Source: a virus
Length of the DNA stretch: 64,000 nt
IMG/VR virus record: IMGVR_UViG_3300017735_000003
Coordinates: 1-64,000 of that record
Direction: 5' to 3' (one strand)
Positions 14,740 to 32,162 of the stretch are shown here, piece by piece. The first letter of the stretch is position 1. Each line of letters starts with the position of its first letter. Below the pieces are notes generated by a model that saw only the letters and a program-made list of their open reading frames with translations, did no database searches and had not been told where the DNA came from. The translations under genes were made by a program, and so were the position numbers.

Positions 14740-14794
14740 CCAGTTTGCAAACTGGCACAGGGTGGTCTCCTCCATGGGGTCCGCCCTTTATACT
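14740..14794 (+). promoter_or_regulatory. Dyad promoter (class A) for the VWA gene
   Basis: Perfect palindrome CCAGTT-TGCA-AACTGG at 14740-14755, continuing as ACTGGCACAGGGT. The -10 TATACT (14789-14794) starts 38 bases after the A of ACTGG. No TTGACA-like -35 box is present. The same arrangement recurs before other genes in this window. Confidence 0.7.
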
Positions 14795-14815
14795 TGTGTC
14801 AGTTGAGAGGAACGC

Positions 14816-16963
14816 ATGATTAATCAGGAGATCAAAGGCAATCTTGCCAAACTGCTCGCCACGGAGAACCTTGTGGTGGAGCATCGCAATGTCTCCACAG
14901 CATCTTTTGACACGGGTCGCCGTGTTCTGACGCTGCCTGTTTGGAACAAGGCATCCTCTACAGTATATGACATGCTGGTAGGTCATGAGGTGGGACATGC
15001 CCTTTATACTCCTGATACTGACTGGACTGAGATTGTTCGTAATAGTGTACCACATGACTTCGTGAATGTTGTGGAAGATGCTCGCATCGAGAAACTTATG
15101 AAGCGTAAGTTTCCTGGTCTCTCACGTAGTTTCTATCAGGGATATGAAGAACTGAATGATCAGGACTTCTTTGAGATCCAGGAAATCGACGCTGAACGTC
15201 TGTCATTTATTGATCGTATTAACCTTCACTTCAAGGTTGGTGCTTTCGCTATGATCCCGTTCGCAAATAATACTGAAGATCAATTCATCGTTCGTATCGG
15301 TGATGCTGAAACGTTTGAAGAAGTGCTCGCTATTTGCGAGGATATTGTAGATTATCTGAAGGAGCAGGAACAACAGCAAACTCCTGTTGCCTCACAGCAA
15401 CCACAGCAGGGTCAAATTGATGAAGATGATGATAACCCTACATCAGAAGATAAGAAGGATACAGACGCTCCTCAGGGTGAATCAGAAGATCAATCTAATG
15501 ATCCTGCTGAACTTGAGACCCCTTCATATGAAGGTAACACTCCTGATATTGATGAGGAAGTATCACAAACTCAGCGTTCTTTCGATGAAAGTGCTGAAGA
15601 ACTCTCTTCAAATCAATCATACTATGGTAATGTTGAGTATGTAGAAGTCCCTAAGATCAAACTTGAAAATACTATTGTTGATTGTAAGGCACTTAACGAT
15701 TACATCAGTAAGTTTTGGTTTGATCAGGGTTTTGAACGCCAGAAGCATTGGGGAGATATCTTTGAAACAGTAGATAATGAGTATAAGAACTACAAATTAT
15801 CCGCTCAGAAAGAAGTAAACTACCTTGTAAAGGAGTTTGAGTGTAAGAAGTCTGCTGATGCTTATGCTCGCACTTCTACAGCACGTTCTGGTGTGCTTGA
15901 TACTAGCAAACTCCATACTTATAAGTATAGTGATGATATCTTTAAGAAAATCAATGTCATCCCTGATGGTAAGAACCATGGTCTGATCTTTATTCTGGAC
16001 TGGTCTGGTTCTATGGTAGATGCTCTCATGGATACTGTTAAGCAACTGCTTAATCTTTGTTGGTTCTGTAAGAAAGTACAGATCCCATTTGAAGTGTATG
16101 CATTTACACTTGAGTGGAATCCTTATGTTCTTGATGAAGAAATGGAAATTGGGGAGTTCCCATCTAAGTGTGACAATAAAGTTGGTGAGTTTAATATTCA
16201 CCGTCGTTTCTTCCTGCTGAACTTCTTGAGTTCACGTAGTAATTCCATGGAGTTTGACACACAGGCAAAGCATCTCTTCCGTATGGCATATAGTTATCGT
16301 AATCATGTTTCTTACCACTGTCCTCATGGTTGTGGTCTTAGTGGCACACCTCTGAACGAGAGTATCATCACTCTTCATCAGATCATTCCACAGTTCAAGA
16401 ATGATAACAAACTCCAGAAGGTTAACGTTGTTATTCTGACTGATGGTGAGGGTTGTGATCTGACATTTAATACTGAGAATAGTTATGCGTCAACAGGTAT
16501 CGGCACCCGCCGTGTTGCTGGTGCTGCTGCTCTTCGTGATCGTAAGACTGGTAACGTTTATCGTACATTTGGTGAATGGAATGGATCATATGATAATTCT
16601 TTGACTGCCATTCTTCTGGAAAATCTTAAGCATCGTTTCCCTGAGGTTAATCTCATCGGTTTCCGTATCGTAACAGGATCTGAATTCAATCGTTTCTATC
16701 GTTACATTAACGTTTGTCAGTGGAGTGATGAAGTTCCTGATAAAGTTACCAAGCAGTGGCGTAAGTCTAGGTCCATTGAAATGAATCCTACAGGATATGA
16801 TGCTCTGTATGCCATTGCTGCCAGTGCATTATCTGCTGATACTACCTTTGATGTTGCAGAAGATGCTAGCATCGCTGAGGTTCGTAAGGCATTCAGGACT
16901 ACCCTGAAGAAAAAATCTTCCAACAAAAAACTGCTTTCTTCTTTTGCCTCTCTTGTCTCTTGA
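14816..16963 (+). CDS. VWA-domain protein with HExxH motif (CobT-like partner of CobS)
   Basis: The 715-residue protein carries HEVGH at residues 57-61, a zinc-metallopeptidase signature. NVVEDARIE at about 84-92 could supply a third metal ligand. Residues about 185-260 form a Gln/Asp/Glu-rich linker. A von Willebrand A domain follows with the MIDAS motif DWSGS near residue 395 and a later VVILTDGEG strand. MoxR-family AAA+ ATPases commonly act with VWA proteins, and CobS works with the VWA protein CobT in cobalt chelatase; the CobS-like gene lies just downstream with the same promoter type. It may be a chelatase-like or protein-remodelling complex, or a peptidase. Which one cannot be told from sequence alone. 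Confidence 0.75.
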   Translation: MINQEIKGNLAKLLATENLVVEHRNVSTASFDTGRRVLTLPVWNKASSTVYDMLVGHEVGHALYTPDTDWTEIVRNSVPHDFVNVVEDARIEKLMKRKFPGLSRSFYQGYEELNDQDFFEIQEIDAERLSFIDRINLHFKVGAFAMIPFANNTEDQFIVRIGDAETFEEVLAICEDIVDYLKEQEQQQTPVASQQPQQGQIDEDDDNPTSEDKKDTDAPQGESEDQSNDPAELETPSYEGNTPDIDEEVSQTQRSFDESAEELSSNQSYYGNVEYVEVPKIKLENTIVDCKALNDYISKFWFDQGFERQKHWGDIFETVDNEYKNYKLSAQKEVNYLVKEFECKKSADAYARTSTARSGVLDTSKLHTYKYSDDIFKKINVIPDGKNHGLIFILDWSGSMVDALMDTVKQLLNLCWFCKKVQIPFEVYAFTLEWNPYVLDEEMEIGEFPSKCDNKVGEFNIHRRFFLLNFLSSRSNSMEFDTQAKHLFRMAYSYRNHVSYHCPHGCGLSGTPLNESIITLHQIIPQFKNDNKLQKVNVVILTDGEGCDLTFNTENSYASTGIGTRRVAGAAALRDRKTGNVYRTFGEWNGSYDNSLTAILLENLKHRFPEVNLIGFRIVTGSEFNRFYRYINVCQWSDEVPDKVTKQWRKSRSIEMNPTGYDALYAIAASALSADTTFDVAEDASIAEVRKAFRTTLKKKSSNKKLLSSFASLVS

Positions 16964-16988
16964 CAATCTTCTTTTTCTAATGTATAAT
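16960..16988 (+). promoter_or_regulatory. Sigma70-type promoter, perfect consensus
   Basis: TTGACA at 16960-16965, a 17-base spacer, TATAAT at 16983-16988. It begins at the stop codon of the VWA gene and lies 30 bases before the ATG at 17018. Confidence 0.85.
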
Positions 16989-17017
16989 TTAACAGTAAGC
17001 AATTTTTAAGAGACAAT

Positions 17018-17545
17018 ATGTTTTCCACTGCCACTAACGAACTTCGTAATGCTGTTGAGCGCAGTAACTGGGGTGTTGTATACGATGGATATGCTATCTG
17101 GGCTAAGAATAATCATCATAAGATCATGATCGGAGATAATCCTATCAGCATTCCACTCCCAAGTATGAAGCGTCCATATGGATTTCGTGACTACTTATTT
17201 ACTTTCATGGGTCGTAATGACTTAAAGGAAGTTAAGAAAGTAGAACAGAATGCATCGAAGTTTCTTTCTAAGCACCCTAGAAAGATTATGGAAGATGCAA
17301 AAATCTTTACCGAACTTCTTCCTGCTGTTCTGGAAAATAAAATTTACCAGAATGAAGTAAAGGATGCAAAGATCAATGCCACACTCAACAATTACTTTGA
17401 GGGTAAGACTGAAGAGTTTCATCAGTCATCCATTGACTTTAATGCCCCAACACAGTCATCAGAAATTATGAATGTGATTAAGATGGCATCAGAATGTGGT
17501 GTCAAGTCCCTTAAGACACCCGAGGGATACGAAATCCAATTCTGA
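17018..17545 (+). CDS. Hypothetical protein, 175 aa, between the VWA and cobS genes
   Basis: The soluble protein begins MFSTATNELRNAVERSNWG and then VVYDGYAIWAKNNHHKIMIG, a short beta-rich stretch also seen loosely in the small protein at 30043 (GYAYWEKDGNYF). The rest is helical and Lys/Glu-rich. It has its own consensus sigma70 promoter, unlike the flanking VWA and cobS genes. Its position suggests a role with that pair. No family was recognised. Confidence 0.75.
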   Translation: MFSTATNELRNAVERSNWGVVYDGYAIWAKNNHHKIMIGDNPISIPLPSMKRPYGFRDYLFTFMGRNDLKEVKKVEQNASKFLSKHPRKIMEDAKIFTELLPAVLENKIYQNEVKDAKINATLNNYFEGKTEEFHQSSIDFNAPTQSSEIMNVIKMASECGVKSLKTPEGYEIQF

Positions 17546-17590
17546 AACTGGCACAGGGTCTCACCCACGACCCCTTAAATACTGTATATT
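17536..17590 (+). promoter_or_regulatory. Dyad promoter (class A) for cobS
   Basis: CCAATT-CTGA-AACTGG at 17536-17551, continuing ACTGGCACAGGGTCTC. The -10 TATATT (17585-17590) starts 38 bases after the A of ACTGG. It overlaps the 3' end of the previous gene. No -35 box is seen. Confidence 0.7.
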
Positions 17591-17618
17591 TACATTGTTC
17601 GCAACCGAGACACACCAC

Positions 17619-18731
17619 ATGCCCCGCAAGATCAACATCGACATGAATGCTCTCACATCATTCATCGCTACCAATTACGGTAATGAATTTGGTGGTGATG
17701 CTGTTCGCGCTGCTGCTGGTTCGTTTAATGTTTCCTACCCCACCATGATGAAACGTCTCGACCAGTATAAAGTGGGTCACGGTAAGTGGAACCTGAGTAT
17801 TCAGGAGAAACTTGAGCAAACATATGAAGCACCTTCTGCTCCTACTGTAGTTGAACCGATCACACAAAACTTAGTACCAGAAAAAGATGATACCTTCGTC
17901 CCTTTTGGTAACTATGGTGATCTCAAGAAGATTATTTCTTCTAACATCTTTTACCCTGTGTTTGTCACTGGGTTATCAGGTAATGGTAAAACTTTCAGTG
18001 TAGAGCAAGCATGTGCCGCTCTTGGGCGTGAATTAATTCGTATCAATATTACCATTGAAACTGATGAAGATGATCTTGTGGGCGGTTTCCGTCTGGTTGA
18101 TGGTAATACTGTCTGGCACAATGGTCCTGTCATTGAGGCTCTTGAGCGTGGTGCTATTCTCCTTCTGGATGAAATCGATCTGGCATCCAATAAAATTATG
18201 TGTCTCCAGTCAATTCTTGAAGGTAAAGGTGTCTTCCTGAAGAAGACTGGACGTTATGTGAAACCTGCTGCTGGTTTCAATGTGATTGCTACTGCCAATA
18301 CTAAAGGTAAAGGTTCTGATGATGGACGTTTCATCGGCACTAATGTGTTGAATGAGGCATTTCTTGAGCGTTTTGCATTGACCTTCGAGCAGGATTATCC
18401 TACTCCTAAGATCGAACAACGTATTCTTGAGGGTATTTCCCTTGATCTGGGGTTGACAGATCGCGAGTTTTGTGAGAAACTTGCTTCATGGGCTGATATT
18501 ATTCGTAAGACCTTTAAAGATGGTGGCATTGATGAAGTGATCTCAACACGTCGTCTGGTCCACATCATCCGTGCTTATGCTATCTTTAACAAGCGTATGA
18601 AGTCTATCGAGGTTTGTGTCAATCGTTTTGATGATGAAACCAAGACTTCATTCATTGAACTCTATGACAAACTTGACGCCAGTGTGCATCAGGAAAGTGT
18701 CGTAGATACCGAACTCTTGACAAATTCTTGA
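17619..18731 (+). CDS. cobS: CobS-like AAA+ ATPase (MoxR family)
   Basis: The 370-residue protein has Walker A GLSGNGKT at 118-125, Walker B LLLDEID at 181-187, sensor 1 ATANT near 224-228 and a sensor 2-type region with ISTRRLVHIIRAY. The N-terminal 70 residues contain a small helix-turn-helix-like segment. Cyanophages commonly carry this gene and annotate it as cobaltochelatase subunit CobS. In bacteria, CobS with CobT and CobN inserts cobalt into the B12 precursor. The start at 17619 was chosen because the dyad promoter predicts transcription near 17597 and earlier in-frame codons lie upstream of it. A role in B12 supply or in a MoxR-VWA complex are both possible. Confidence 0.85.
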   Translation: MPRKINIDMNALTSFIATNYGNEFGGDAVRAAAGSFNVSYPTMMKRLDQYKVGHGKWNLSIQEKLEQTYEAPSAPTVVEPITQNLVPEKDDTFVPFGNYGDLKKIISSNIFYPVFVTGLSGNGKTFSVEQACAALGRELIRINITIETDEDDLVGGFRLVDGNTVWHNGPVIEALERGAILLLDEIDLASNKIMCLQSILEGKGVFLKKTGRYVKPAAGFNVIATANTKGKGSDDGRFIGTNVLNEAFLERFALTFEQDYPTPKIEQRILEGISLDLGLTDREFCEKLASWADIIRKTFKDGGIDEVISTRRLVHIIRAYAIFNKRMKSIEVCVNRFDDETKTSFIELYDKLDASVHQESVVDTELLTNS

Positions 18732-19583: not shown

Positions 19584-19798
19584 TATATCAATACACCATT
19601 TTTGTGGTGGTTGCTATTTTTGTTTACTTAATTTTTACTGAACCCAACGCATCACTTTACATTGACTTACAAGTACAGGGAGCATGGATAAACATCCGTC
19701 GTCTCCTTTTTCTTGCTCGTATGTATCCACGGATTAAATTTGATACGTGGATGATTAAGCGTAGATATAAAAAAATTATGAAAGACAATGGGCAGTAA
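19580..19798 (+). CDS. Small membrane protein, 72 aa
   Basis: One N-terminal transmembrane segment (YTIFVVVAIFVYLIF, residues about 5-19) is followed by a basic, Arg-rich tail (RRLLFLARMYPRIK, KRRYKKIMK), which predicts an inner-membrane protein with a cytoplasmic basic tail. The ATG at 19580 overlaps the previous stop by four bases; a GTG/TTG-type extension upstream is possible. No family was recognised. Confidence 0.7.
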   Translation: MIYQYTIFVVVAIFVYLIFTEPNASLYIDLQVQGAWINIRRLLFLARMYPRIKFDTWMIKRRYKKIMKDNGQ

Positions 19799-20315
19799 TA
19801 TATTTTATGATTACATCTGGTCGAAAGATGTATTAGATTATTATCGTGAAATGTTTGATGACTGGAAGGGTAAACAATCAAATCCAGTTCATAAGAGTGG
19901 TGATCGTGAACTGCTAGACATTACTCACGATTGCCCTGATCCATCTCCACTAATTGATAAGTATATAAACTCCTTATCAGATAGAGTTGCCGCTGAATTA
20001 TCTAATTCTTTTTCCTCTGGGTATTCTACTGATGGAAGGTTAAGTTTGTATAATATACAACAACGTTATGATTGGCATCATGATGCTAGTCGTAAATATA
20101 AGCACCCACAAAATCCTAATTGGAGAAGGATTATTTCATCGATAACATATTTGAATGATGACTTCAAAGGTGGTGAGACAGAATTTGAAGATCAGTTAAT
20201 CATACCACAATCAGGAAAAACAGTTACATTCCCATCCACATTTACTTATCCTCACCGTGGATGTCCTATTGCAGAGGGCACCAAAAAAATCTTAGTCATG
20301 CATGTATGGGTGTAA
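19788..20315 (+). CDS. 2OG-Fe(II) oxygenase (prolyl-4-hydroxylase-like) 1
   Basis: The 175-residue protein has the iron-binding H97-x-D99 (RYDWHHD), the typical core SITYLNDDFKGGETEF, distal His156 (TYPHRG) and Lys166/167 in the place of the 2OG-binding basic residue. These enzymes couple 2-oxoglutarate decarboxylation to hydroxylation. The substrate is unknown. It is one of five such genes between 19.8 and 29.2 kb and overlaps the preceding membrane-protein gene by 11 bases. Confidence 0.85.
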   Translation: MGSNIFYDYIWSKDVLDYYREMFDDWKGKQSNPVHKSGDRELLDITHDCPDPSPLIDKYINSLSDRVAAELSNSFSSGYSTDGRLSLYNIQQRYDWHHDASRKYKHPQNPNWRRIISSITYLNDDFKGGETEFEDQLIIPQSGKTVTFPSTFTYPHRGCPIAEGTKKILVMHVWV

Positions 20316-20354
20316 AAATGTGTTATAATTAGTAGTAGTTCTTTATCATTAGTG

Positions 20355-20528
20355 ATGACTACCAATCATCTAATTAATTCGATTGTATATGAAATCCAGT
20401 GCATCAATCCAGAAGAAACACTGGATCATGCTAAAGTAAAGAAAGCATCACAAAAGATTGTAACTCTTGTAGAAGACTATCAATCTAGACAAAAAGAAAA
20501 ACCAACTCGCTGGAGAGCGTCTGACTAA
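20355..20528 (+). CDS. Hypothetical protein, 57 aa
   Basis: Short helical ORF (MTTNHLINSIVYEIQCINPEE...). Its TAA overlaps the next ATG (TAATG). A TATAAT with an extended-10 TG lies about 30 bases upstream. No family was recognised. Confidence 0.6.
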   Translation: MTTNHLINSIVYEIQCINPEETLDHAKVKKASQKIVTLVEDYQSRQKEKPTRWRASD

Positions 20529-20743
20529 TGACTAGTAACATTTACAAGAAATACTGGGAGGAACCAGACAGACAAAAACAATCATGGATCCTTCCTGTAG
20601 AGACATGTTGTAATCATCATAGTGGTGATTATGCAATCACATTTCCTGATGATCTTATCGAAGCAGTAGGATGGGAGATTGGAGATGACTTGGAATGGAT
20701 TGACAACAATGATGGATCATTCACACTAAAGAAAATTAACTAA
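20528..20743 (+). CDS. AbrB/SpoVT-like small protein, 71 aa
   Basis: Residues about 33-70 (DYAITFPDDLIEAVGWEIGD, then DLEWIDNNDGSFTLKKI) match the swapped-hairpin AbrB/MazE pattern: a beta strand, 'P..L...LGW..GD.L', then two strands. Such proteins bind DNA as dimers and act as transcription regulators or antitoxins. It lies directly before an AT-hook-type gene (one-base overlap). A regulator role is inferred from fold only. Confidence 0.6.
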   Translation: MTSNIYKKYWEEPDRQKQSWILPVETCCNHHSGDYAITFPDDLIEAVGWEIGDDLEWIDNNDGSFTLKKIN

Positions 20744-21060
20744 TGGCAATTCGTAATCATAAGGGTGAGACTGTTGGTGCTGAAGATGTAGCACCTAAGC
20801 GTAAACCAGGACGCCCTAAGAAAACTGAAGCAACATCGAATAAGAAAGTACGCGCACCTAAAGGACCAGTGATTGATCCTCCCCGTGTTACTGACGGTCC
20901 ATTTCATATGGTATTTCCTTACCATCTTCATTATAAGGATACTGATGGCAGCAATAGAAATTTCTATTTTCAATGCGAAGGTCACATGAACACACACATC
21001 GAGAGGTACAAAGTTGACAGAAGAAAAGCAACAATCAGAGCAACAGAACCAAGGAATTGA
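20743..21060 (+). CDS. Basic protein with AT-hook-like motif, 105 aa
   Basis: The N-terminal half is Lys/Arg/Pro-rich with KRKPGRPKK (residues about 20-28), an AT-hook core (GRP flanked by basic residues). The C-terminal half is a compact beta-rich segment (FHMVFPYHLHYKD, FYFQCEGHMNTHIERYK). It is likely a DNA-associated protein. It follows the AbrB-like gene with a one-base overlap. Confidence 0.65.
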   Translation: MAIRNHKGETVGAEDVAPKRKPGRPKKTEATSNKKVRAPKGPVIDPPRVTDGPFHMVFPYHLHYKDTDGSNRNFYFQCEGHMNTHIERYKVDRRKATIRATEPRN

Positions 21061-21280
21061 AATTCCTGAGGGTGCAGAACTCATCGATGAATGCTTCTAT
21101 GTCTGGGAAACTAGGTATGGATTGTATTCTACCATGACAAAGGAAGGTCGTCGGATGATGACTGGTGCTACTAAAGATGGTGTCACTGTTATGACACGTT
21201 GGCATCTTAAATGTGAACAGGAGGGCACACTACATCTATACACTAGAGTTGTCAATACTACCCAAGGCGTTAAATTATGA
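21014..21280 (+). CDS. Hypothetical protein, 88 aa, TTG start
   Basis: The ORF begins at TTG (21014), preceded by GAGAGG eight bases upstream, and overlaps the previous gene by 47 bases in another frame. The Gln/Glu-rich N-terminus is followed by GIEIPEGAELIDECFYVWET and TRWHLKCEQEGTLHLYTRV. The long hydrophobic/aromatic pattern and the four-base overlap with the next gene support it. The next in-frame ATG would remove about 40 residues. Confidence 0.65.
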   Translation: MTEEKQQSEQQNQGIEIPEGAELIDECFYVWETRYGLYSTMTKEGRRMMTGATKDGVTVMTRWHLKCEQEGTLHLYTRVVNTTQGVKL

Positions 21281-21921
21281 TCCTGACTACAACTCGTAAA
21301 GTTGAATTAGATTCCAAGTTGATTAAACAACTTGAGACTAAATTCATGACACCTGAATATAAGTTTCCAAAAGATTCTTATCTTGATGATGCTGGTCAAA
21401 AACCACCAGAAGATTTCCTAAATTCTCGAATATATTCGAGTTGGGATGAGATGACTAAACCTCATTTTCCTCCTGATGTAGAGACATGGTATCACAATTT
21501 AATTAGTGGTATTTTATCCGAGGTTGGATTACTGGGAAGAATTCATGCTGTCAATAGTAAGTGGTGTCAAATTTATACCAATAAAACTGAAGGTCATGGC
21601 GTTCACACACACTGCGGCGGTCAAGAATTTATATCATGGGTACATTTTGTGAAGACACCAACAGATCAGAAATGTTTTTTCTTTGTTGATTCTAATTCAC
21701 AGAAAGTATATCCAGAGCAGGACAGTGGAACTCTACTACTCTTTCCACCTTATATGATGCATGGTGTAGAACCTCTAGGGGACAGTCAAAATTCTAGGAT
21801 TGTCGTTGCCGGAAATATTGTTGCTCAACAATATAAACCTGTTCCATATGCAGACTTGACATTTAATATTGATAATGATAATGGAAAGGTCACATGGAAA
21901 CCTAGTGAAGATCCTAGATAG
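21277..21921 (+). CDS. 2OG-Fe(II) oxygenase-like protein 2
   Basis: The 214-residue double-stranded beta-helix protein has GHGVHTHCGGQEFISWVHF (His110 and His112 as H-x-H rather than H-x-D), LLLFPPYMMHGVEP with distal His162, and Arg174 (NSRIVV) in the 2OG position. The H-x-H pair resembles the phage/marine '2OG-FeII_Oxy_5' type rather than the prolyl hydroxylase type of its neighbours. The substrate is unknown. Confidence 0.75.
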   Translation: MILTTTRKVELDSKLIKQLETKFMTPEYKFPKDSYLDDAGQKPPEDFLNSRIYSSWDEMTKPHFPPDVETWYHNLISGILSEVGLLGRIHAVNSKWCQIYTNKTEGHGVHTHCGGQEFISWVHFVKTPTDQKCFFFVDSNSQKVYPEQDSGTLLLFPPYMMHGVEPLGDSQNSRIVVAGNIVAQQYKPVPYADLTFNIDNDNGKVTWKPSEDPR

Positions 21922-21942
21922 ATGAGTATATGATTACATGCC

Positions 21943-22161
21943 ATGTCTATGTTAGATTTCTTTAAGAGAGAAGAATATGATAATGCTTTTGCATTTGCTG
22001 ATAAACTTCTCGAACTTCAAGATCGTATAGAAGATCTTGAAAGAGCAAATTCTGAAAAAAATACCGCTTTGTTTGAATTAGAAAATCGACTATTATATGA
22101 GATTGACAGAATTCATCCGGTGCAGTATAATATAGTTGCTAAAGAAGACATCGATGCATAG
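21943..22161 (+). CDS. Coiled-coil protein, 72 aa
   Basis: Acidic helical protein with heptads in LELQDRIEDLERANSEKNTALFELENRLLYEIDRI (given in two overlapping pieces: LELQDRIEDLERANSEK and NTALFELENRLLYEIDRI). Its 3' end contains the promoter and start of the next oxygenase gene. No family was recognised. Confidence 0.65.
   Translation: MSMLDFFKREEYDNAFAFADKLLELQDRIEDLERANSEKNTALFELENRLLYEIDRIHPVQYNIVAKEDIDA
22103..22131 (+). promoter_or_regulatory. Sigma70-type promoter, perfect consensus, inside a gene end
   Basis: TTGACA at 22103-22108, a 17-base spacer, TATAAT at 22126-22131, inside the end of the coiled-coil gene. Transcription near 22138 gives a 16-nt leader to the ATG at 22154. Confidence 0.75.
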
Positions 22162-22717: not shown

Positions 22718-22764
22718 AGACTAAAGTGTTAAATAGTTAAAACATTTAATACAAAAATCTTAAA

Positions 22765-23302: not shown

Positions 23303-23312
23303 AGAAAAACTA

Positions 23313-23736: not shown

Positions 23737-23756
23737 TAACAAAATTTCATACTACA

Positions 23757-23984: not shown

Positions 23985-24171
23985 TGATTTTGTAAAGGGA
24001 CAACGATTTCTCTACGTTGCTAATGGTTTTGAACACGATGGTGTAGTAAATTTCATTGATGATATTGGTGGAAAGTATATTACATTAACAGTTGGTCCGA
24101 GTAACTTAGTGATCTATCCGCAATGGTGGGACAGATTAACTCCAATTGACAAGCCCCCCTGTGACAGTTAA
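23974..24171 (+). CDS. Hypothetical protein, 65 aa
   Basis: Beta-rich small protein (FVKGQRFLYVANGFEHDGVV, then KYITLTVG) that may form an SH3-like barrel. Its end overlaps the dyad of the downstream promoter. No family was recognised. Confidence 0.6.
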   Translation: MKISDFVKGQRFLYVANGFEHDGVVNFIDDIGGKYITLTVGPSNLVIYPQWWDRLTPIDKPPCDS

Positions 24172-24218
24172 TGAACTGGTTCAGCACCCTTGACGGGGTG
24201 CTTTTTTTATGCCATACT
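24164..24218 (+). promoter_or_regulatory. Dyad promoter (class A) for the restriction-like/Dam pair
   Basis: ACAGTT-AATG-AACTGG at 24164-24179. The hexamer CATACT (24213-24218) starts 38 bases after the A of ACTGG. An intrinsic terminator for the upstream operon lies between the dyad and the -10, so upstream reading stops just before the new start. Confidence 0.6.
24183..24208 (+). terminator. Intrinsic terminator
   Basis: 7-bp stem AGCACCC / GGGTGCT with loop TTGACG and then a run of T to 24208. Confidence 0.85.
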
Positions 24219-24241
24219 TACAAAGTAATCGAGACCACAGC

Positions 24242-24805
24242 ATGAACGAGTATCTAACCCGCACACTGCTTCCGTTGATTGTCACCATTGAACCTAAAAA
24301 GTCTGAGAGTGATCTTGTCGATGCACTTGGATTAGAATTAAATTCTAGTCAAAGCATTTTGATTACTACCGGTAATCGTATTGAACAATTCTGGAACATT
24401 GTTATCAGTGATAGTAAGAGTGATAATCTGATTGAAAAGGTTAACTTAGTTGCCGTCAACGGAAAAGATCGTCAGATTGATCATCACTTTAAGTGCTATC
24501 TGGATGGTCTCTTTTACTATTTGGAGAGTAAGTGCAACACAAACTTAGATAGTGAGAAAGTAAAAGCATCTAATAAGAAGGTTGGTGAGGTTAAATGTGC
24601 TCTTAATGCTAATGTTGGTGCATACTTCAAACCTGTTGTGAGTGTGCCATCAGCAGCAGATCTTACCAAGTTTAATAATAAAGGAGTTGATATCTATGGT
24701 GTTAAGTGGATGCTCTCCAAGATTGATGCACAGTTTACTGAAGAAGAATATTTCACATTCTTGCGTGAGGTTGTTGCTCCAATCTTAGTGGAAAAGGGTC
24801 TGTGA
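24242..24805 (+). CDS. Putative PD-(D/E)xK type II restriction endonuclease
   Basis: The 187-residue protein contains RQIDHHF (Asp80) followed by LFYYLESKCNTNLDSEK (Glu95-x-Lys97), an arrangement like the D...ExK catalytic site and the 'ExKxNxxLDxEK' run that I recall from several type II restriction enzymes. NRIEQFWN (about 45-52) is also like the helix before the core in such enzymes. It lies 31 bases upstream of an adenine methyltransferase, the usual arrangement of a restriction-modification pair. The ATG at 24242 was chosen because the predicted transcript starts near 24225, after the earlier ATG at 24209. It could instead be an unrelated PD-(D/E)xK nuclease. Confidence 0.55.
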   Translation: MNEYLTRTLLPLIVTIEPKKSESDLVDALGLELNSSQSILITTGNRIEQFWNIVISDSKSDNLIEKVNLVAVNGKDRQIDHHFKCYLDGLFYYLESKCNTNLDSEKVKASNKKVGEVKCALNANVGAYFKPVVSVPSAADLTKFNNKGVDIYGVKWMLSKIDAQFTEEEYFTFLREVVAPILVEKGL

Positions 24806-24836
24806 TATAATTAACTAGTAAACTGACTGAGTACAT

Positions 24837-25664
24837 ATGAAACCTGTCATTAAGTATCAAGGTGGTAAAACTCGCGAGATCAAAACTATCACGCGGATGA
24901 TGCCTAAACAATTCAATCGCATTGTGGAACCATTTTGTGGTGGTGCAGCGGTGTCATTTAACTTCGAGAAACCATCAGTATTATCTGATAGTAACTCGAT
25001 GGTAATCAATCTCTACAAAGTATTGCAGAGTGATGACTATGTGCATGTCTTAAATCATATTGACATCATCAAAAGTTATGATCATGATGCATTACAAGAG
25101 GCATTCTATGCTGCAAGAAATGTAATCAATAATCCTCAAGATTTCACGCCATTAATACAAGCAATATCATATATTATTGTGCGGCAGTTATGTTTCTCTG
25201 GCATGGAGAGGTATAATGCTAAGGGTGAATTTAATGTGCCATTCGGACACTATAAGAAGATGGGATGTAACTTAACATCAGATCATCATACATTTCTGAG
25301 TAATACTATCATTGATCATGGTGATTTTGAGGTAGCACTCAATCATGCTAACTCCGATGACTTTGTGTTCATTGATCCTCCTTATCTTGAACGTTTAGGA
25401 TATCATACTGGTGATGGTGGTGAGGTTCACTCACGTCTCGCAGAAATTCTTAAGAATGCATCATACAAGTGGATGATCGTACACTCTGATCATGAATTCT
25501 ACCGTGAGCAATACAAATCTTTTCATATTATGACTAAAGATTTTCAGTATGCTCAACGGTTTGGTAAAGATAAAGACCATGCTGGTGCTAGCGTACAGCA
25601 TCTTTACATCACCAACTACGAACCAGTTGACGAACTGGCACAGGGTCGCCTCCCACTGCCATGA
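24837..25664 (+). CDS. dam: DNA adenine methyltransferase (D12 class, Dam-like)
   Basis: The 275-residue protein has KYQGGKTREI at the start, EPFCGGAAVSF (AdoMet-binding FxGG motif, about 31-41), LSDSNSMVINLYKVL, and the catalytic DPPY at about 180-183. Order and length fit D12-class N6-adenine methyltransferases such as Dam and T4 Dam. It would methylate phage DNA, protecting it from host or phage-encoded nucleases. The 3' end of the gene carries the dyad of the next promoter. Confidence 0.9.
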   Translation: MKPVIKYQGGKTREIKTITRMMPKQFNRIVEPFCGGAAVSFNFEKPSVLSDSNSMVINLYKVLQSDDYVHVLNHIDIIKSYDHDALQEAFYAARNVINNPQDFTPLIQAISYIIVRQLCFSGMERYNAKGEFNVPFGHYKKMGCNLTSDHHTFLSNTIIDHGDFEVALNHANSDDFVFIDPPYLERLGYHTGDGGEVHSRLAEILKNASYKWMIVHSDHEFYREQYKSFHIMTKDFQYAQRFGKDKDHAGASVQHLYITNYEPVDELAQGRLPLP

Positions 25665-25677
25665 AACCGTGTATATT
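25623..25677 (+). promoter_or_regulatory. Dyad promoter (class A) for the 25751 operon
   Basis: CCAGTT-GACG-AACTGG at 25623-25638, continuing ACTGGCACAGGGTCG. The -10 TATATT (25672-25677) starts 38 bases after the A of ACTGG. The dyad lies inside the end of the dam coding sequence. Confidence 0.7.
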
Positions 25678-25683
25678 AGATGA

Positions 25684-25730
25684 GTGGAGGGGAGACCTTC
25701 CACGTCACGCGCTAGTCTCCTAGGGACTAG
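25684..25730 (+). promoter_or_regulatory. Structured mRNA leader with two stems and an alternative pairing
   Basis: Starting at the predicted 5' end, an 8-bp stem (25684-25691 with 25696-25703, one G.T) is closed by a GAGA tetraloop. A second 8-bp stem (25712-25719 with 25723-25730) follows. The segment GGGAGAC at 25690-25696 can instead pair with GTCTCCT at 25715-25721, which would break both stems. Confidence 0.5.
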
Positions 25731-25750
25731 CAAACCTTTCTTTCCTTAAC

Positions 25751-25993
25751 ATGCAAATCTCCAACAACGTCTGCACTGTTGATTTCTTTCCTGAGGCATT
25801 CATCGCTGATGAGGGCGTCAAGCGTTTCCAGAAGCGTGTCACCTTCAACAATGGTACAAAGTCCTATAGCACTGTAACCCTGCTCACAGCACGTAATGAG
25901 TGGGAGACACGCATCGCTAACGGTGCTGAGGTCACTGGTTATAACATGTCACAAATGCCACGTTCTGAGTATGCTCCGATGGCAGTCGGATGA
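25751..25993 (+). CDS. Hypothetical protein, 80 aa
   Basis: Beta-rich small protein (MQISNNVCTVDFFPEAFIAD..., VTFNNGTKSYSTVTLLTA). It is the first gene after the structured leader and overlaps the next gene by four bases. No family was recognised. Confidence 0.7.
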   Translation: MQISNNVCTVDFFPEAFIADEGVKRFQKRVTFNNGTKSYSTVTLLTARNEWETRIANGAEVTGYNMSQMPRSEYAPMAVG

Positions 25994-26412
25994 GTAATAT
26001 TCCTTTCTTTACCGTTCAAGAATGGGAGGAGCAATGGGATAATCTCTTTGCTCGCGTTGAGAACGGTGAAACACTTGGGGTGACAAATGGCACACAATGT
26101 GCTATTATGTTACCGTACACAATCTATCAATCAATCAAACCAACTTCTAAAGAAATGATCGTATCTGCTCCTATCGCTCGTATGCTGACCGCTGAACAGT
26201 CTAGTGCTGTTGCATTCATCAAGATCGAAGACAACATTGTAACTATTTCATATCAGTCTAATCCTGATAACATGTATGAGTTCACCAGTGAATCACAATC
26301 ATTTGTATCACAACTGACGCAAATTGTTGAGGCAGAAGATCTTATGGGCATGTCTCTCGGTGGTGTTATTGCTGATGCTCGCCGCGTTGGTGATTTAGTC
26401 CAGAATGGTTAG
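25990..26412 (+). CDS. Protein with Phd/YefM antitoxin-like N-terminus, 140 aa
   Basis: Residues 6-50 (FFTVQEWEEQWDNLFARVEN, GETLGVTNGTQCAIMLPYTI) follow the Phd/YefM pattern: an amphipathic helix, 'xxVExGExxxVTxxGxxxAVMxP', then a helix. Phd-type proteins bind their own operator and neutralise a toxin through the C-terminus. Here the C-terminal 80 residues form an unrelated-looking beta/alpha segment. The small downstream genes do not resemble Doc or RelE toxins. A regulator without a toxin is possible. Confidence 0.55.
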   Translation: MSNIPFFTVQEWEEQWDNLFARVENGETLGVTNGTQCAIMLPYTIYQSIKPTSKEMIVSAPIARMLTAEQSSAVAFIKIEDNIVTISYQSNPDNMYEFTSESQSFVSQLTQIVEAEDLMGMSLGGVIADARRVGDLVQNG

Positions 26413-26542
26413 TATTCCATTAGTATACGAAGAAATTGTTCTTCTTCAAGAAATCCTGATCGCTATCGATAACGCTGAACCAGTTATCATCGAGGATCAG
26501 GATTTATTTCACTCACTTTATCTCAAGGTAATGCAATCATGA
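26405..26542 (+). CDS. Hypothetical protein, 45 aa
   Basis: Short acidic/hydrophobic helical ORF (MVSIPLVYEEIVLLQEILIA...) overlapping the upstream gene by eight bases and the downstream ATG by four (ATGA). No family was recognised. Confidence 0.6.
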   Translation: MVSIPLVYEEIVLLQEILIAIDNAEPVIIEDQDLFHSLYLKVMQS

Positions 26543-26682
26543 CTTATATTGTTACCATGTATGCCGCTGGCAAAACATTCAAAGAAAAAGTAATCGCTGC
26601 TAATCCTCAAGATGCTCGCACAACTGCTGAAGCCCGTAACCCCAGTGCAACAGTCATGGGAGTTACTGTTCAATTCGACTGA
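26539..26682 (+). CDS. Hypothetical protein, 47 aa
   Basis: Small ORF (MTYIVTMYAAGKTFKEKVIA..., ending VMGVTVQFD) resembling a short ferredoxin-like beta-alpha-beta peptide. It overlaps the upstream stop (ATGA). No family was recognised. Confidence 0.6.
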   Translation: MTYIVTMYAAGKTFKEKVIAANPQDARTTAEARNPSATVMGVTVQFD

Positions 26683-26812
26683 ATATGTTGATGAAAGTGT
26701 TGATGGAGCGATTGAAGATCACCACATCAATGAATTACATAAGTTTGCTGAACTGTCAATCAACCCTGTGACAGTTCATAAACTGGTTGCTAGTACGTGG
26801 CAAACGCTCTAG
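26612..26812 (+). CDS. Possible overlapping gene, up to 66 aa
   Basis: The ORF continues past the 47-aa gene in another frame and fills the gap to the next promoter. The part after 26683 (EYVDESVDGAIEDHHINELH, then KFAELSINPVTVHKLVASTW) looks like a real helical protein, but has no in-frame ATG, GTG or TTG of its own. Possible starts are ATG 26612 or GTG 26645, both inside the other gene, or a programmed frameshift. Confidence 0.4.
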   Translation: MLAQLLKPVTPVQQSWELLFNSTEYVDESVDGAIEDHHINELHKFAELSINPVTVHKLVASTWQTL

Positions 26813-26825
26813 CATGGTCTATAAT
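26771..26825 (+). promoter_or_regulatory. Dyad promoter (class A) for the 26847 gene
   Basis: ACAGTT-CATA-AACTGG at 26771-26786. The -10 TATAAT (26820-26825) starts 38 bases after the A of ACTGG. From the -10 onward the sequence TATAATTAATTCATCA is repeated in the next promoter. Confidence 0.7.
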
Positions 26826-26846
26826 TAATTCATCAGCAAAGCACTC

Positions 26847-27098
26847 ATGACCGTCACCATCGTCAAGCACTCCTTCTACAAGATCGAGATCGACACTCAT
26901 GAGGCACCACAGCAACCGATCGTGTATTTCCGTAAGGAAGGCAAGTGTACCACTGCTAAGGGCATGGATCGTCAGCATGATCGTATTGTGATGGAGACTG
27001 TTGAGCAATGGCGTCCATTCTCACAGCAGATCCGTCGCTACACTGTCTCTCGTGTGCCAGTTGACGTAGTGGTCGGTGGCGAGATCCGCAAGGCATAA
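26847..27098 (+). CDS. Hypothetical protein, 83 aa
   Basis: Beta-rich, Arg-rich protein (MTVTIVKHSFYKIEIDTHEA..., VEQWRPFSQQIRRYTVSRVP). G+C-richer codons than the late genes. Monocistronic by promoter layout. No family was recognised. Confidence 0.7.
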   Translation: MTVTIVKHSFYKIEIDTHEAPQQPIVYFRKEGKCTTAKGMDRQHDRIVMETVEQWRPFSQQIRRYTVSRVPVDVVVGGEIRKA

Positions 27099-27111
27099 TA
27101 CCTGCTATAAT
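27057..27111 (+). promoter_or_regulatory. Dyad promoter (class A) for the 27139 gene
   Basis: CCAGTT-GACG-TAGTGG at 27057-27072, inside the upstream gene end. The -10 TATAAT (27106-27111) starts 38 bases after the A of AGTGG. The 16 bases from the -10 onward match the promoter at 26771-26825. Confidence 0.65.
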
Positions 27112-27138
27112 TAATTCATCAACCAAGGAACCCCACTC

Positions 27139-27369
27139 ATGATCGTTCTCACCTGCGAAGACCACGGATGTGCTTATTCTATTGATAGCGAGGGCACATT
27201 ATACTATAGTGTGCAATATAATGATGGATCTATTAATGTAGAAGACTGGGATGAAGTCGATCATATGGCATTGTTAGGTGAAGAGTGTGAGTATAAGACA
27301 ATCATTGATACTGTTCATGAGCAACTGATTGCCATGAGTAAGTTAATTGGAGAGTATTATCAGGCATAA
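27139..27369 (+). CDS. Hypothetical acidic protein, 76 aa
   Basis: Acidic beta-rich protein (CEDHGCAYSIDSEGTLYYSV, EDWDEVDHMALLGEECEY). Single gene behind its own promoter. No family was recognised. Confidence 0.7.
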   Translation: MIVLTCEDHGCAYSIDSEGTLYYSVQYNDGSINVEDWDEVDHMALLGEECEYKTIIDTVHEQLIAMSKLIGEYYQA

Positions 27370-27412
27370 TTAGTATAGTTCCGCATCGTTCTTCATTCTT
27401 TCCGCATTCATC

Positions 27413-27868
27413 ATGACTACTACTTTCACTGACTACGTTGCTACTCAAGATGCTCGTAATAGTATTCAACTTAAGGTACGTGAGTATGCATTAATGTTAT
27501 GTGATGCATTGGAATATGACTTCAAGCGTGATAGCATTCGCCGTGCTAACTTCTTTAATCATACTGATCCTGAGTATAAAGCACAACGTCTTGAATCTAT
27601 TGAGCGTGGTGATTGCCTGTATAAGTTTTATATTGAATCCGGTCGTAAGTATCACAAGATCATTATGGAGACTGAGAGTGGTAATCGTAGCGTACATTGC
27701 TTTATTAACATGAAGACTGGTGAGTTGCATAAAGCAGCATCATTCAAAGCACCAGTGAAAGAAGCACGTTTCGATCTGAATATCATTAAAGAGCGTGAGT
27801 TTGTCCTTGAGAAGTGTGACTGGAGTGGTGGATATCTTTATAAGAATGCATACTACCAAGGTGCCTGA
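27413..27868 (+). CDS. Hypothetical protein, 151 aa
   Basis: The protein has a helical N-terminus (DYVATQDARNSIQLKVREYA) and a beta-sheet middle (DCLYKFYIESGRKYHKIIME, SVHCFINMKTGELHKAAS) ending in SGGYLYKNAYYQGA. The beta-sheet part resembles the small DUF-type proteins common in cyanophages. Its stop is one base from the next ATG. Confidence 0.7.
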   Translation: MTTTFTDYVATQDARNSIQLKVREYALMLCDALEYDFKRDSIRRANFFNHTDPEYKAQRLESIERGDCLYKFYIESGRKYHKIIMETESGNRSVHCFINMKTGELHKAASFKAPVKEARFDLNIIKEREFVLEKCDWSGGYLYKNAYYQGA

Positions 27869-27869
27869 T

Positions 27870-28070
27870 ATGCAGTACACTAAAGAACAATTGATTGATG
27901 CACTCGTATATGAGTGGGATTACCTTTGCCATGATGATTACGATCCTGATGATGACACACCAGAAGAGTATCGTCTTAAGTTAGAGTTACTTACTACTGA
28001 AGAACTGGTAGAAGAAACATCTACTGGTGAAGGATATACTTTAGAAGAGTTTATGGAGAACTGGTTATGA
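27870..28070 (+). CDS. Hypothetical acidic protein, 66 aa
   Basis: Very acidic helical protein (DALVYEWDYLCHDDYDPDDD, EEYRLKLELLTTEELVEE). ATG 27870 was chosen because it follows the previous stop directly; the longer in-frame ORF would overlap that gene. Four-base overlap with the following oxygenase. Confidence 0.65.
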   Translation: MQYTKEQLIDALVYEWDYLCHDDYDPDDDTPEEYRLKLELLTTEELVEETSTGEGYTLEEFMENWL

Positions 28071-28600
28071 CAGTTGTTGCAGAGTATAAGGATATATTGT
28101 CACAAGAAGATTGGAATACTGTTCGTAATATCTTAAAGCGTCCACAATGGAAGTTCGGTCATACTTCTACGCATCTTGATAGTCTCGCATCAGTACTGCC
28201 AAGACCGAAATATTGGAAGATGAAGTTACATGAGGATGAATTCTTTATGTCATATATGTCAGAGATCATACTCAACCTAGTTCCAGTTAATAATCTCAAG
28301 GTCAGGAACGTATATGCTGGAGGTAATACATTCGGTACGTCTGGTGATATTCATACTGATAGTGAAGATGATAACTATTATACTTTTTTATATCATGCCT
28401 CACCTGATCTATGGAAACCAATGTATGGAGGTAAGACATCATTCTATCCAGTCAATGCTCCCCCTGAGTATTACGAGTTCACTCCTAATAGCGGTCTCTT
28501 CTTTCACTCTAATGTCCCACATCTAGGTGAACCAGTCACTAGATACTTTGATGGATTACGCATCTGCATTGCATTTAAACTTATACCCTTACTCTCATGA
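28067..28600 (+). CDS. 2OG-Fe(II) oxygenase 4
   Basis: The 177-residue protein has TSGDIHTDSED with H96-x-D98, GGKTSFYP, PNSGLFFHSNVPHLGEP with distal His152, and Arg165 (GLRICIAF) for 2-oxoglutarate. The iron and 2OG residues are all present. It overlaps both neighbours by four bases, and the following gene is another oxygenase, so the two may act in one pathway. Confidence 0.8.
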   Translation: MTVVAEYKDILSQEDWNTVRNILKRPQWKFGHTSTHLDSLASVLPRPKYWKMKLHEDEFFMSYMSEIILNLVPVNNLKVRNVYAGGNTFGTSGDIHTDSEDDNYYTFLYHASPDLWKPMYGGKTSFYPVNAPPEYYEFTPNSGLFFHSNVPHLGEPVTRYFDGLRICIAFKLIPLLS

Positions 28601-29223
28601 TTCATAATCATATCTACTATTCGGATGAACCAATCATTACATCAGAATTCTGTAATGATCTTATTAATAAGTTTGAACAAGATCCCCACCTACGTTCTGG
28701 TTCTACTGGACCAACTAATGTTATAGATGATAGGATTAAGAAGTCAACTGATCTTCATATCACATCACATCCTGGGTATGAAGAAGAACATGAAGTCCTG
28801 AAGAAAGCAACAATTAATCAATTTGCTGAGTATAAGAAAGCATTAGAAGAGTTAGTCCCAGTATATTACTTGACTACTGTTGGTATGAAGTTCCCTGGAT
28901 TTAATATGCAGAGGACATTACCAGGTGAGTATTATAATTGGCATTGTGATGAAGATAATGTAGCAGGTGGTAGAAACTATTCTAGAGGCATTACTTATAT
29001 CATATACATGAATGATATACACAATGATGGTTATACTGAGTTCTATGATGGGACACGTATTCAACCCAAGCAAGGGCATTGTTTATTGTTTCCCGCAACT
29101 TGGACTTATGTTCATCGTGGTGTTCCGCCTGTTGATGAAACGAAGTACTTATGCACTGGTTGGGCATACTATCAGGGGTTAGTTAATCCAACAGATCGGC
29201 AGGGTAATATGCGTGTTATGTGA
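28597..29223 (+). CDS. 2OG-Fe(II) oxygenase 5
   Basis: The 208-residue protein has GEYYNWHCDED with H116-x-D118, the core GITYIIYMNDIHNDGYTEFY, LFPATWTYVHRGVPP with distal His173, and Lys183 in the 2OG position. It is most like prolyl-4-hydroxylase type cyanophage oxygenases. It is the last gene before the 520-bp gene-free region. Confidence 0.85.
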   Translation: MIHNHIYYSDEPIITSEFCNDLINKFEQDPHLRSGSTGPTNVIDDRIKKSTDLHITSHPGYEEEHEVLKKATINQFAEYKKALEELVPVYYLTTVGMKFPGFNMQRTLPGEYYNWHCDEDNVAGGRNYSRGITYIIYMNDIHNDGYTEFYDGTRIQPKQGHCLLFPATWTYVHRGVPPVDETKYLCTGWAYYQGLVNPTDRQGNMRVM

Positions 29224-29827: not shown

Positions 29828-29828
29828 T

Positions 29829-30445: not shown

Positions 30446-30464
30446 ACTGGTCAGCCGCCCGTGG

Positions 30465-30519
30465 ACGATTGGTTAACTGTCACATGGTAGCAGGTCAGCG
30501 GTGGGGGATGCTGTAGGAT
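30465..30519 (+). promoter_or_regulatory. Dyad promoter (class B) for the 30543 gene
   Basis: ACGATT-GGTT-AACTGT at 30465-30480, then CAC. The hexamer TAGGAT (30514-30519) starts 38 bases after the A of ACTGT. The 30465 dyad is nearly the same as that at 30703. Confidence 0.55.
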
Positions 30520-30542: not shown

Positions 30543-30710
30543 ATGTGGGACGAAATTCAGGACATGATGGGCGAAATCTTTGACTTTGGAGATGTGACCG
30601 ATGACATCCCGTCCATCCTCTCGTTTGACTGTGACATCGATGATCGGGACGCCATGCCCTTGGACATGCAGGAGGACATTGAGAAGGAAGACCCTCTGCT
30701 GGACGATTGA
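30543..30710 (+). CDS. Very acidic hypothetical protein, 55 aa
   Basis: Almost one residue in three is Asp or Glu (FDFGDVTDDIPSILSFDCDI, DDRDAMPLDMQEDIEKEDP). Such small acidic phage proteins can mimic DNA or bind host polymerase, but no family was recognised. G+C-rich codons. ATG 30543 was chosen over an upstream TTG. Confidence 0.6.
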   Translation: MWDEIQDMMGEIFDFGDVTDDIPSILSFDCDIDDRDAMPLDMQEDIEKEDPLLDD

Positions 30711-30756
30711 CTAACTGTCACCCTAGCGTGGCACAGCACTCAAAATCCTCTATTGT
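30703..30756 (+). promoter_or_regulatory. Dyad promoter (class B) for the 30763 gene
   Basis: ACGATT-GACT-AACTGT at 30703-30718, then CAC, overlapping the end of the acidic gene. The hexamer TATTGT (30751-30756) starts 37 bases after the A of ACTGT. Only six bases separate the -10 from ATG 30763. Confidence 0.6.
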
Positions 30757-31031: not shown

Positions 31032-31214
31032 ATGCAAACACTTCACGACAATTTTCGCGCTTGCCTCGTTGCCCTTCCAACGTTCATGAAGCACCACGAC
31101 CCAACGTTCATGGAGTCTGTTGAGTGGGTTCTTCGTCAGTGTGGTTGGTGCTATATCTCCAACACTGAATGGAAGATCTTAGAGGCACACTACGAGCACC
31201 ACTGTGCCGACTGA
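31032..31214 (+). CDS. Hypothetical protein, 60 aa
   Basis: Small ORF (MQTLHDNFRACLVALPTFMK..., VEWVLRQCGWCYISNTEW). ATG 31032 was chosen; TACAAT (31020-31025) lies six bases upstream, the same distance as for the 30763 gene. No dyad is visible at the expected place. Confidence 0.65.
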   Translation: MQTLHDNFRACLVALPTFMKHHDPTFMESVEWVLRQCGWCYISNTEWKILEAHYEHHCAD

Positions 31215-31260
31215 CTAAGTGTCACACAAAATAGGCACTGCACCCCAGATGCCTTATATT
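31207..31260 (+). promoter_or_regulatory. Dyad promoter (class B) for the 31289 gene
   Basis: CCGACT-GACT-AAGTGT at 31207-31222, then CAC. The -10 TATATT (31255-31260) starts 37 bases after the A of AGTGT. Confidence 0.6.
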
Positions 31261-31288: not shown

Positions 31289-31615
31289 ATGCGTAAGATC
31301 GAAACCCAGATGAACGCCGCCATCAAAGGCAACGCCAACTGGAAACTGAAGAACACGACTGTCACCACGACCGATGGTGTCTCAGAAGTTCGCCTTCATG
31401 GTAACTTGATCGCTAAAGTGGGCGATGATTTCGTCACCGTCTTTGATGGCGGTTGGCAGTCTACCACGACAAAATCACGTTTGAACGCGATCATCAACGA
31501 ATTCTGCAACGCTTTCACCGATGGTGTTTTTCAGAAGGATTTCGCCTGGTATGTTCGCGACAACAAAGTGACTCATGATTTCGTCAATGGTTACACCTTC
31601 GCTGAGTTCGCCTGA
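31289..31615 (+). CDS. Hypothetical protein, 108 aa
   Basis: Soluble alpha/beta protein (MRKIETQMNAAIKGNANWKL..., TVTTTDGVSEVRLHGNLIAK) that resembles small cyanophage DUF proteins with a conserved GNANWKLKNT-type start. ATG 31289 was chosen because transcription should start near 31267, downstream of the first in-frame ATG at 31259. Confidence 0.7.
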   Translation: MRKIETQMNAAIKGNANWKLKNTTVTTTDGVSEVRLHGNLIAKVGDDFVTVFDGGWQSTTTKSRLNAIINEFCNAFTDGVFQKDFAWYVRDNKVTHDFVNGYTFAEFA

Positions 31616-31618
31616 GAA

Positions 31619-31662
31619 ATTGGCACATGGGGGCAAGCGTTGCCCCTCACAGCCCCTATAAT
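31619..31662 (+). promoter_or_regulatory. Dyad-type promoter, right half only
   Basis: ATTGGCACATGGG at 31619-31631 matches the right half-site. The -10 TATAAT (31657-31662) starts 38 bases after the first A. No left half-site is recognisable. GGGGGCAAGC/GTTGCCCC can form a stem between the two. Confidence 0.55.
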
Positions 31663-31686
31663 AAGGACATCAAACGAACCGACACC

Positions 31687-31968
31687 ATGCGTTTCAAAAT
31701 CAACTCTGACCAATCCAGTTCAGTTCACAGTCTCAAAGTCAATCCTATCACGGGAACCGCTCGCGTGAAATGGGGCAAGGCAACGAATTGTGAGTATCGC
31801 TGCACCAGGGTGTCCCGTCGTAAGATCCTCGCTCTGATCCTGGATTCAGATCGTTCGCTCGGTCGTTGGGTTAACCGCCATGCACAGTGGAAAGACTACG
31901 CCATCAAAGGCACCAACGTCTTTCGGAATATTTCCATTGCTCCTTCTGAACTGACGGGGTGGAACTGA
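31687..31968 (+). CDS. Hypothetical basic protein, 93 aa
   Basis: Arg/Lys-rich alpha/beta protein (VKWGKATNCEYRCTRVSRRK, SLGRWVNRHAQWKDYAIKG). KxxxI-type pattern may bind nucleic acid. ATG 31687 was chosen after the predicted start near 31669. No family was recognised. Confidence 0.65.
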   Translation: MRFKINSDQSSSVHSLKVNPITGTARVKWGKATNCEYRCTRVSRRKILALILDSDRSLGRWVNRHAQWKDYAIKGTNVFRNISIAPSELTGWN

Positions 31969-31970
31969 TC

Positions 31971-32144
31971 ATGCAACGTACAGGATTTTTCATTCACAGC
32001 GACAACCCCTCCCCTCTGATGACCAAGGTCATGGAGGACATTCAACGCCAGCACCTGGCAGAGACCGAACGCCGCCAACGCATCAGAGCAGGACTTGAGC
32101 CAGGTGGACAGTGGGGAACCTGGCACATCAGCGACAGACATTGA
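31971..32144 (+). CDS. Hypothetical protein, 57 aa
   Basis: Arg/Gln/Glu-rich helical ORF (MTKVMEDIQRQHLAETERRQ). The ATG lies two bases after the previous stop; an in-frame ATG at 31959 would overlap that gene. The 3' end contains a dyad promoter. Confidence 0.6.
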   Translation: MQRTGFFIHSDNPSPLMTKVMEDIQRQHLAETERRQRIRAGLEPGGQWGTWHISDRH

Positions 32145-32162
32145 TCGCTGACCGACTAGACT
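32108..32162 (+). promoter_or_regulatory. Dyad promoter (class A) for the 32189 gene
   Basis: ACAGTG-GGGA-ACCTGG at 32108-32123, continuing as CTGGCACA. The hexamer TAGACT (32157-32162) starts 38 bases after the position matching A of ACTGG. The dyad lies inside the preceding gene. Confidence 0.55.

Follow-up and report, generated by a model that had tools for sequence, protein, structure and literature searches.

T4 middle promoters combine a -10 box and a poor -35 box with an upstream activator site, a single MotA box near -30, and in class I/II activated sigma70 promoters of the CRP/FNR type, a dyad of dimer size lies ahead of a sigma70 -10. T4-like cyanophages rank with the most common marine viruses, and for most of their takeover genes no function is known. 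These phages reportedly have neither T4-like middle promoters nor motA/asiA (PMC5780444). Here, we describe a recurring promoter class in the virus record IMGVR_UViG_3300017735_000003 (66,290 bases), of which positions 1 to 64,000 form the 64-kb window analyzed. In this class, a 24-bp dyad stands at a fixed distance upstream of a -10 box and close to a gene start. DNA matches of the record lead to phages of Synechococcus and Prochlorococcus, cobS being the gene covered best, and judged by its sequence the source virus looks like a T4-like cyanophage.

The initial annotation of this DNA had proposed eleven promoters built on a dyad CCAGTT-N4-AACTGG, and its idea of a recurring promoter class with the dyad at an activator-like position is supported here. 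Sites are named by the A of the ACTGG in the right half. Each of these positions and each -10 hexamer was re-read from the sequence and found to be correct, as was the spacing between them, which is 38 everywhere except at 30714 and 31218, where it is 37. The proposed dyad is a genuine core but is too short, since the complete element spans 24 bp (10+4+10). The eleven sites, all on the plus strand, are spread over 14.7 to 32.2 kb, and their parts and nearby targets are as follows.

14736..14759, plus strand: dyad operator TAGACCAGTTTGCAAACTGGCACA, preceding the VWA gene at 14816; site kept before the orthologue in 9 of 9 Kyanoviridae cyanophages compared
14789..14794, plus strand: -10 TATACT, offset 38
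14816..16963, plus strand: target open reading frame (ORF) labeled VWA, orthologue of Syn9 gp150
17532..17555, plus strand: dyad operator AAATCCAATTCTGAAACTGGCACA, preceding cobS
17585..17590, plus strand: -10 TATATT, offset 38
17619..18731, plus strand: target ORF, cobS-like AAA ATPase
24160..24183, plus strand: dyad operator TGTGACAGTTAATGAACTGGTTCA, left half perfect
24190..24195, plus strand: -35 TTGACG, 17 bp upstream of the -10, within a terminator-like hairpin that precedes T7
24213..24218, plus strand: -10 CATACT, offset 38
25619..25642, plus strand: dyad operator CGAACCAGTTGACGAACTGGCACA, within the 3' end of the dam-like ORF 24837-25664
25672..25677, plus strand: -10 TATATT, offset 38, target ORF 25751
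26767..26790, plus strand: dyad operator TGTGACAGTTCATAAACTGGTTGC
26820..26825, plus strand: -10 TATAAT, offset 38, target ORF 26847
27053..27076, plus strand: dyad operator TGTGCCAGTTGACGTAGTGGTCGG
27106..27111, plus strand: -10 TATAAT, offset 38, target ORF 27139
30461..30484, plus strand: dyad operator GTGGACGATTGGTTAACTGTCACA
30514..30519, plus strand: -10 TAGGAT, offset 38
30699..30722, plus strand: dyad operator CTGGACGATTGACTAACTGTCACC
30751..30756, plus strand: -10 TATTGT, offset 37, target ORF 30763 (phrog_649)
31203..31226, plus strand: dyad operator TGTGCCGACTGACTAAGTGTCACA
31255..31260, plus strand: -10 TATATT, offset 37, target ORF 31289 (Kyano_Gp96 family, PF23790)
31604..31627, plus strand: weak dyad GAGTTCGCCTGAGAAATTGGCACA, right half only
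31657..31662, plus strand: -10 TATAAT, offset 38
32104..32127, plus strand: dyad operator GTGGACAGTGGGGAACCTGGCACA
32157..32162, plus strand: -10 TAGACT, offset 38

The label VWA is that of the initial annotation; a Pfam search with ORF 14816 gave no VWA match, and Syn9 gp150 is annotated as "peptidase."

Across 277 sites in ten other cyanophage genomes, the consensus is TGTGMCASTT-N4-AASTGKCACA, that is, two mirror-image ten-base half-sites separated by four free bases, with M mirrored by K. The offset from the right-half A to the TATAAT-like -10 is 37 to 39 bases in this set (47, 143, and 87 sites at 37, 38, and 39, respectively), and the ORF start mostly lies another 20 to 30 bases downstream of the -10. 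With the first base of the -10 set at -12, the dyad center falls at -52.5 to -54.5. The half proximal to the -10 is the better conserved one (8.95 versus 7.84 matches of 10). Window sites mostly pair one near-perfect half with one poorer half, the left half being perfect at 24175, 26782, and 27068 and the right half at 14751, 17547, 25634, 30476, and 31218. Under a model trained on the other genomes, dyad scores range from 15.6 to 26.3 at 10 of the 11 window sites; 31619 is a weak site (dyad score 7.2, left half with 3 of 10 matches), yet its -10 is perfect. No further convincing site was found in the rest of the window, the next best being a weak one on the minus strand at 51855. A -10 at the correct distance is present on one side of 112 of 155 strong dyads from the ten genomes, on neither side of 36, and on both sides of 7, too few to lean on.

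At a score of at least 17, the window contains 11 composite sites (dyad plus -10), whereas 200 dinucleotide shuffles gave 0.07 on average and never more than 1. Such shuffles ignore gene structure, a shortcoming partly compensated by reversed-pattern and negative-phage controls. The matrix used in this comparison was refined on the ten other genomes, the window serving as the first seed only. A matrix made from the eleven window sites alone recovers, at a threshold of 20, 3 to 27 composite sites per cyanophage in the ten genomes, marine and freshwater phages among them (0 to 0.1 in shuffles), and none in T4, Pelagibacter phage HTVC008M, or Microcystis phage Ma-LMM01. A scan of the T7-like P-SSP7 likewise gave no dyad composite. 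When the offset is left free, -10 boxes peak at 38 and 39 (70 and 31, versus approximately 2 per other offset). We observe the same in IMG/VR, scanned for the exact dyad core without any -10 requirement: the 134 unique sites among the matches listed have at least 71 -10-like hexamers (one mismatch at most) at offsets 37 to 39, with 41 at offset 38, 24 at offset 39, and single figures at every other offset. That the pattern is a product of chance, or of selecting sites from AT-rich phage sequence, could be argued from the abundance of -10-like hexamers in such DNA and from the sites having presumably first been picked by eye. However, held-out models, shuffles, reversed-pattern controls, negative-control phages, and orthologue conservation exclude this reading, which we regard as vanishingly improbable.

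An ORF starts no more than 75 nt after 150 of 172 high-confidence sites, and in 100 of these 150 cases the start is 20 to 30 nt past the -10. ORFs of at least 60 amino acids (aa) lie downstream of 63% of the 172 sites, compared with 26% of random positions. The genes that recur downstream are cobS (7 genomes, counting the window as well as S-TIM5, the latter by protein similarity), VWA (6 genomes), and the Gp96 family, a helicase, and a gp183-type gene (5 genomes each). As the initial annotation had anticipated, the same dyad and spacing precede orthologous genes in related cyanophages, namely the VWA, cobS, and Gp96 families. At a lower cutoff, all nine Kyanoviridae cyanophages and the window have a matching site 19 to 41 bases upstream of the cobS start and 25 to 39 bases upstream of the VWA gene start; the weak ones are the cobS dyads of Syn9 (score 6.0) and S-ShM2 (10.6) and the cobS -10 of S-CRM01 (1.1). 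No matching site lies upstream of the HTVC008M orthologues of cobS and VWA, whose proteins are 60% and 32% identical, respectively. In Syn9, nine high-confidence copies are found, most of them in a small-ORF cluster at 44 to 53 kb, with others at 127.5 kb (VWA) and 148.8 kb.

The class had initially been described as lacking any TTGACA-like -35, a statement contradicted at 24175, where TTGACG stands exactly 17 bp before CATACT. This is the sole exception in the window, with TTGACA matched at 4 of 6 positions at most, at spacers of 15 to 19 bp, at the remaining 10 of 11 sites. Elsewhere, 82 of 277 sites show at least 4 of 6 matches at 16 to 18 bp, versus 29 of 277 with shuffled spacers, and the class is therefore better termed "-35 weak or optional" than "-35-less." A good -35 at some sites would suit a promoter that needs just its -10 and the host sigma factor, with the dyad acting as a repressor operator that shuts the genes off later; palindromic operators are typical of repressors, and the set looks early, early genes being shut off later. 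However, the dyad is located farther upstream than the -35 region, its distance to the -10 being kept strictly at 37 to 39 bases, and the majority of sites are without a -35. Activation fits this arrangement better than a steric block does, and it is the position of the dyad that argues for activation; we consider repression quite unlikely.

In the dyad-to--10 gap at 24175, a terminator-like hairpin that contains the -35 occupies 24181-24206 (AGCACCC-ttga-CGGGGTGCT followed by seven T), and stable hairpins are present in the same gap at 14751, 31619, and 32119. A terminator and the next promoter may thus occupy a common stretch.

We consider it likely that the dyad promoters form one regulon of a T4-like cyanophage, probably early, controlled by a dyad-bound and most likely phage-made activator. 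A dimeric DNA-binding protein would sit on the 24-bp dyad centered near -53 and would recruit or steady host RNA polymerase carrying the main sigma factor. The latter would read the -10, while at most sites the usual -35 contact would be weak or absent. The binding protein would most likely be made or delivered by the phage, and the regulon, probably early, would take in VWA and cobS along with clusters of small genes to which no function is assigned. Several points weigh against this activator. Immediate-early genes would need either a virion-borne phage protein or a host protein, and a dyad center at -53 is not among the commonest activator positions. In addition, the -35-like box at approximately 30% of sites suggests that activation may be dispensable at some of them, and a phylogenetic profile gave no candidate that is conserved exactly with the motif and has a clear DNA-binding fold.

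Unlike T4 middle promoters, the dyad sites carry no MotA box, as the initial annotation had recognized: WWTGCTTYA at 11 to 13 bp before the -10 is matched at 2 to 4 of 9 positions at the eleven sites, and over the 172 sites its matches stay below the random level. The four bases between the inner half-sites of the cyanophage dyad are also found in FNR sites, but a dyad center at -53 is unusual for promoters of the CRP/FNR type, and the CRP site TGTGA-N6-TCACA finds just 4 to 7 of 10 matches at the eleven window sites. In the part of Sullivan 2010 used here, promoter searches for sigma70, T4 late, Pho, and NtcA are described and such a dyad is not mentioned (PMC3037559). The NtcA site GTA-N8-TAC shows no excess at dyad sites relative to random positions.

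Our literature search, which did not cover the study by Doron et al. on the Syn9 early element (2016, ISME J), found no description of the dyad. That study reportedly places Syn9 early genes under a "novel regulatory element" and middle genes under host-like promoters. The reported element belongs to the same phage group, and Syn9 carries the dyad composite; on these grounds, it is quite likely that the elements are identical, and the initial remark that no described cyanophage motif was known to match is probably wrong. What the present analysis provides is the length and symmetry of the dyad, its spread over lineages, its S-TIM5 variant, and its absence from host genomes. Even for an element already reported in Syn9, length, symmetry, and the spread to freshwater phages and S-TIM5 narrow the identity of the regulator, as does the lack of the element in the Pelagibacter relative and in host chromosomes.

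The assignment of these promoters to middle infection in the initial annotation is doubtful. Dyad sites cluster in the small-ORF region, which, together with what is reported for Syn9, makes early activity likelier, and expression of the set probably begins early in infection. The set fits the early class reported for Syn9. Between VWA and cobS, both preceded by a dyad, a consensus host-type promoter, TTGACA-17-TATAAT, is located at 16960-16988 upstream of ORF 17018; it fits the reported middle class.

The host side was addressed in 57 CsoS2-bearing genomes (alpha-carboxysome gene csoS2), which we take to be relatives of Prochlorococcus, Synechococcus, and Cyanobium. Allowing up to three mismatches, these contain 13 sites versus 17 for the reversed pattern as a control, and thus no enrichment, in a test that sees near-matches only and would miss a host protein whose natural site is looser. 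By the same count, nine Kyanoviridae cyanophages (approximately 1.8 Mb in total) contain 89 sites versus 2. Small "cyanobacterial" genomes were excluded, 25 of 25 checked being without photosystem reaction-center genes. One of the host matches (L307) has a second site and a good -10 close by and may be phage DNA. A host factor should have sites in host chromosomes, so that the count speaks against a host regulator with an ordinary regulon. With no dyad regulon in picocyanobacterial chromosomes, a phage-encoded DNA-binding protein becomes likelier than one from the host.

S-TIM5, a myovirus outside Kyanoviridae according to the taxonomy line of its record, shows the same architecture with an offset of mostly 39 and an altered outer half-site (...GCCAGTY-N4-AACTGGCCCA), reading GGCCCA in place of GGCACA. 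Part of its sites come from a model refitted on S-TIM5 itself, and their count is less secure than in the other genomes. An operator that diverges while the architecture stays the same is to be expected if every lineage encodes a binding protein version of its own.

Both results bear on the alternative of a host transcription factor at the dyad, a borrowed picocyanobacterial activator that would let the genes fire before any phage protein exists. The element does track the host, being present in Synechococcus and Prochlorococcus phages, including the separate lineage S-TIM5, and absent from the Pelagibacter-infecting relative; early timing would suit a borrowed activator, and host PhoB, which binds S-PM2d promoters, offers a precedent (PMC10976474). 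Against this stand the lack of enrichment in the 57 alpha-cyanobacterial genomes and the differing S-TIM5 half-site despite the same kind of host, and we hold a host factor to be doubtful. For the phage-made activator, a more speculative reading, less likely than not, is an undescribed family, phage encoded and possibly virion delivered, that would govern a conserved regulon from the dyad in place of T4 MotA/AsiA. It would serve almost all T4-like cyanophages and, through the variant operator, the separate S-TIM5 lineage as well. The operator can be scanned for in any cyanophage contig, yielding a list of co-regulated genes, and can serve as bait for finding the regulator.

Among candidates for the regulator, the gp136 family (phrog_507) was rejected, as it was not found in the motif carrier S-CRM01, and gp147 was not found in S-TIM5. 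The N terminus of CobS was rejected likewise, with cobS also occurring in the motif-free HTVC008M and this stretch being more variable than the DNA site. By eye, and with cyanophage copies compared, this N-terminal stretch of the cobS-like protein (17619-17790) is helix-turn-helix-like and lies ahead of the ATPase domain. A 48-aa basic protein (phrog_516) was dismissed as well, being not found in S-SSM7. This very basic protein of no known function, encoded at 41076-41219, is highly conserved in 9 of 10 cyanophages compared, including S-TIM5, and was not found in T4, HTVC008M, or Ma-LMM01.

A host regulon in large-genome cyanobacteria, suggested by an excess of the dyad there (68 of 386 genomes), was also discarded: the 20 loci read are mixed and form no single regulon, comprising coding sequence, a spacer of clustered regularly interspaced short palindromic repeats (CRISPR), plasmid sites, and other intergenic elements. 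At one cyanobacterial locus (L292, near 2514; genome G105, contig C1), a spacer of a CRISPR-like array carries TGTGACACTTTGAGAATTGGCACT, which a dyad on contig C2 of that genome matches exactly. On small contigs (L293 and L294), dyads resembling it adjoin an integrase-like ORF. In three cyanobacterial genomes, a TGTG-type dyad is followed by a conserved CTTGTGTGTGAG (L296 at 2473, L297 at 2475, and L298 at 2497), which looks like another conserved cyanobacterial element.

Finally, T4-type late promoters and consensus sigma70 promoters are likewise promoter-like elements of this phage, and the dyad set is distinct from both. Copies of the T4-type late box TATAAATA at 8854 and 55281 stand in front of the large ORFs 8894 and 55325, and another lies at 41760. 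Proteins of the 2OG-Fe(II) oxygenase type are a common family in cyanophages, and by eye the ORFs at 19788, 21277, 22136, 28067, and 28597 (19788-29223) resemble this type.

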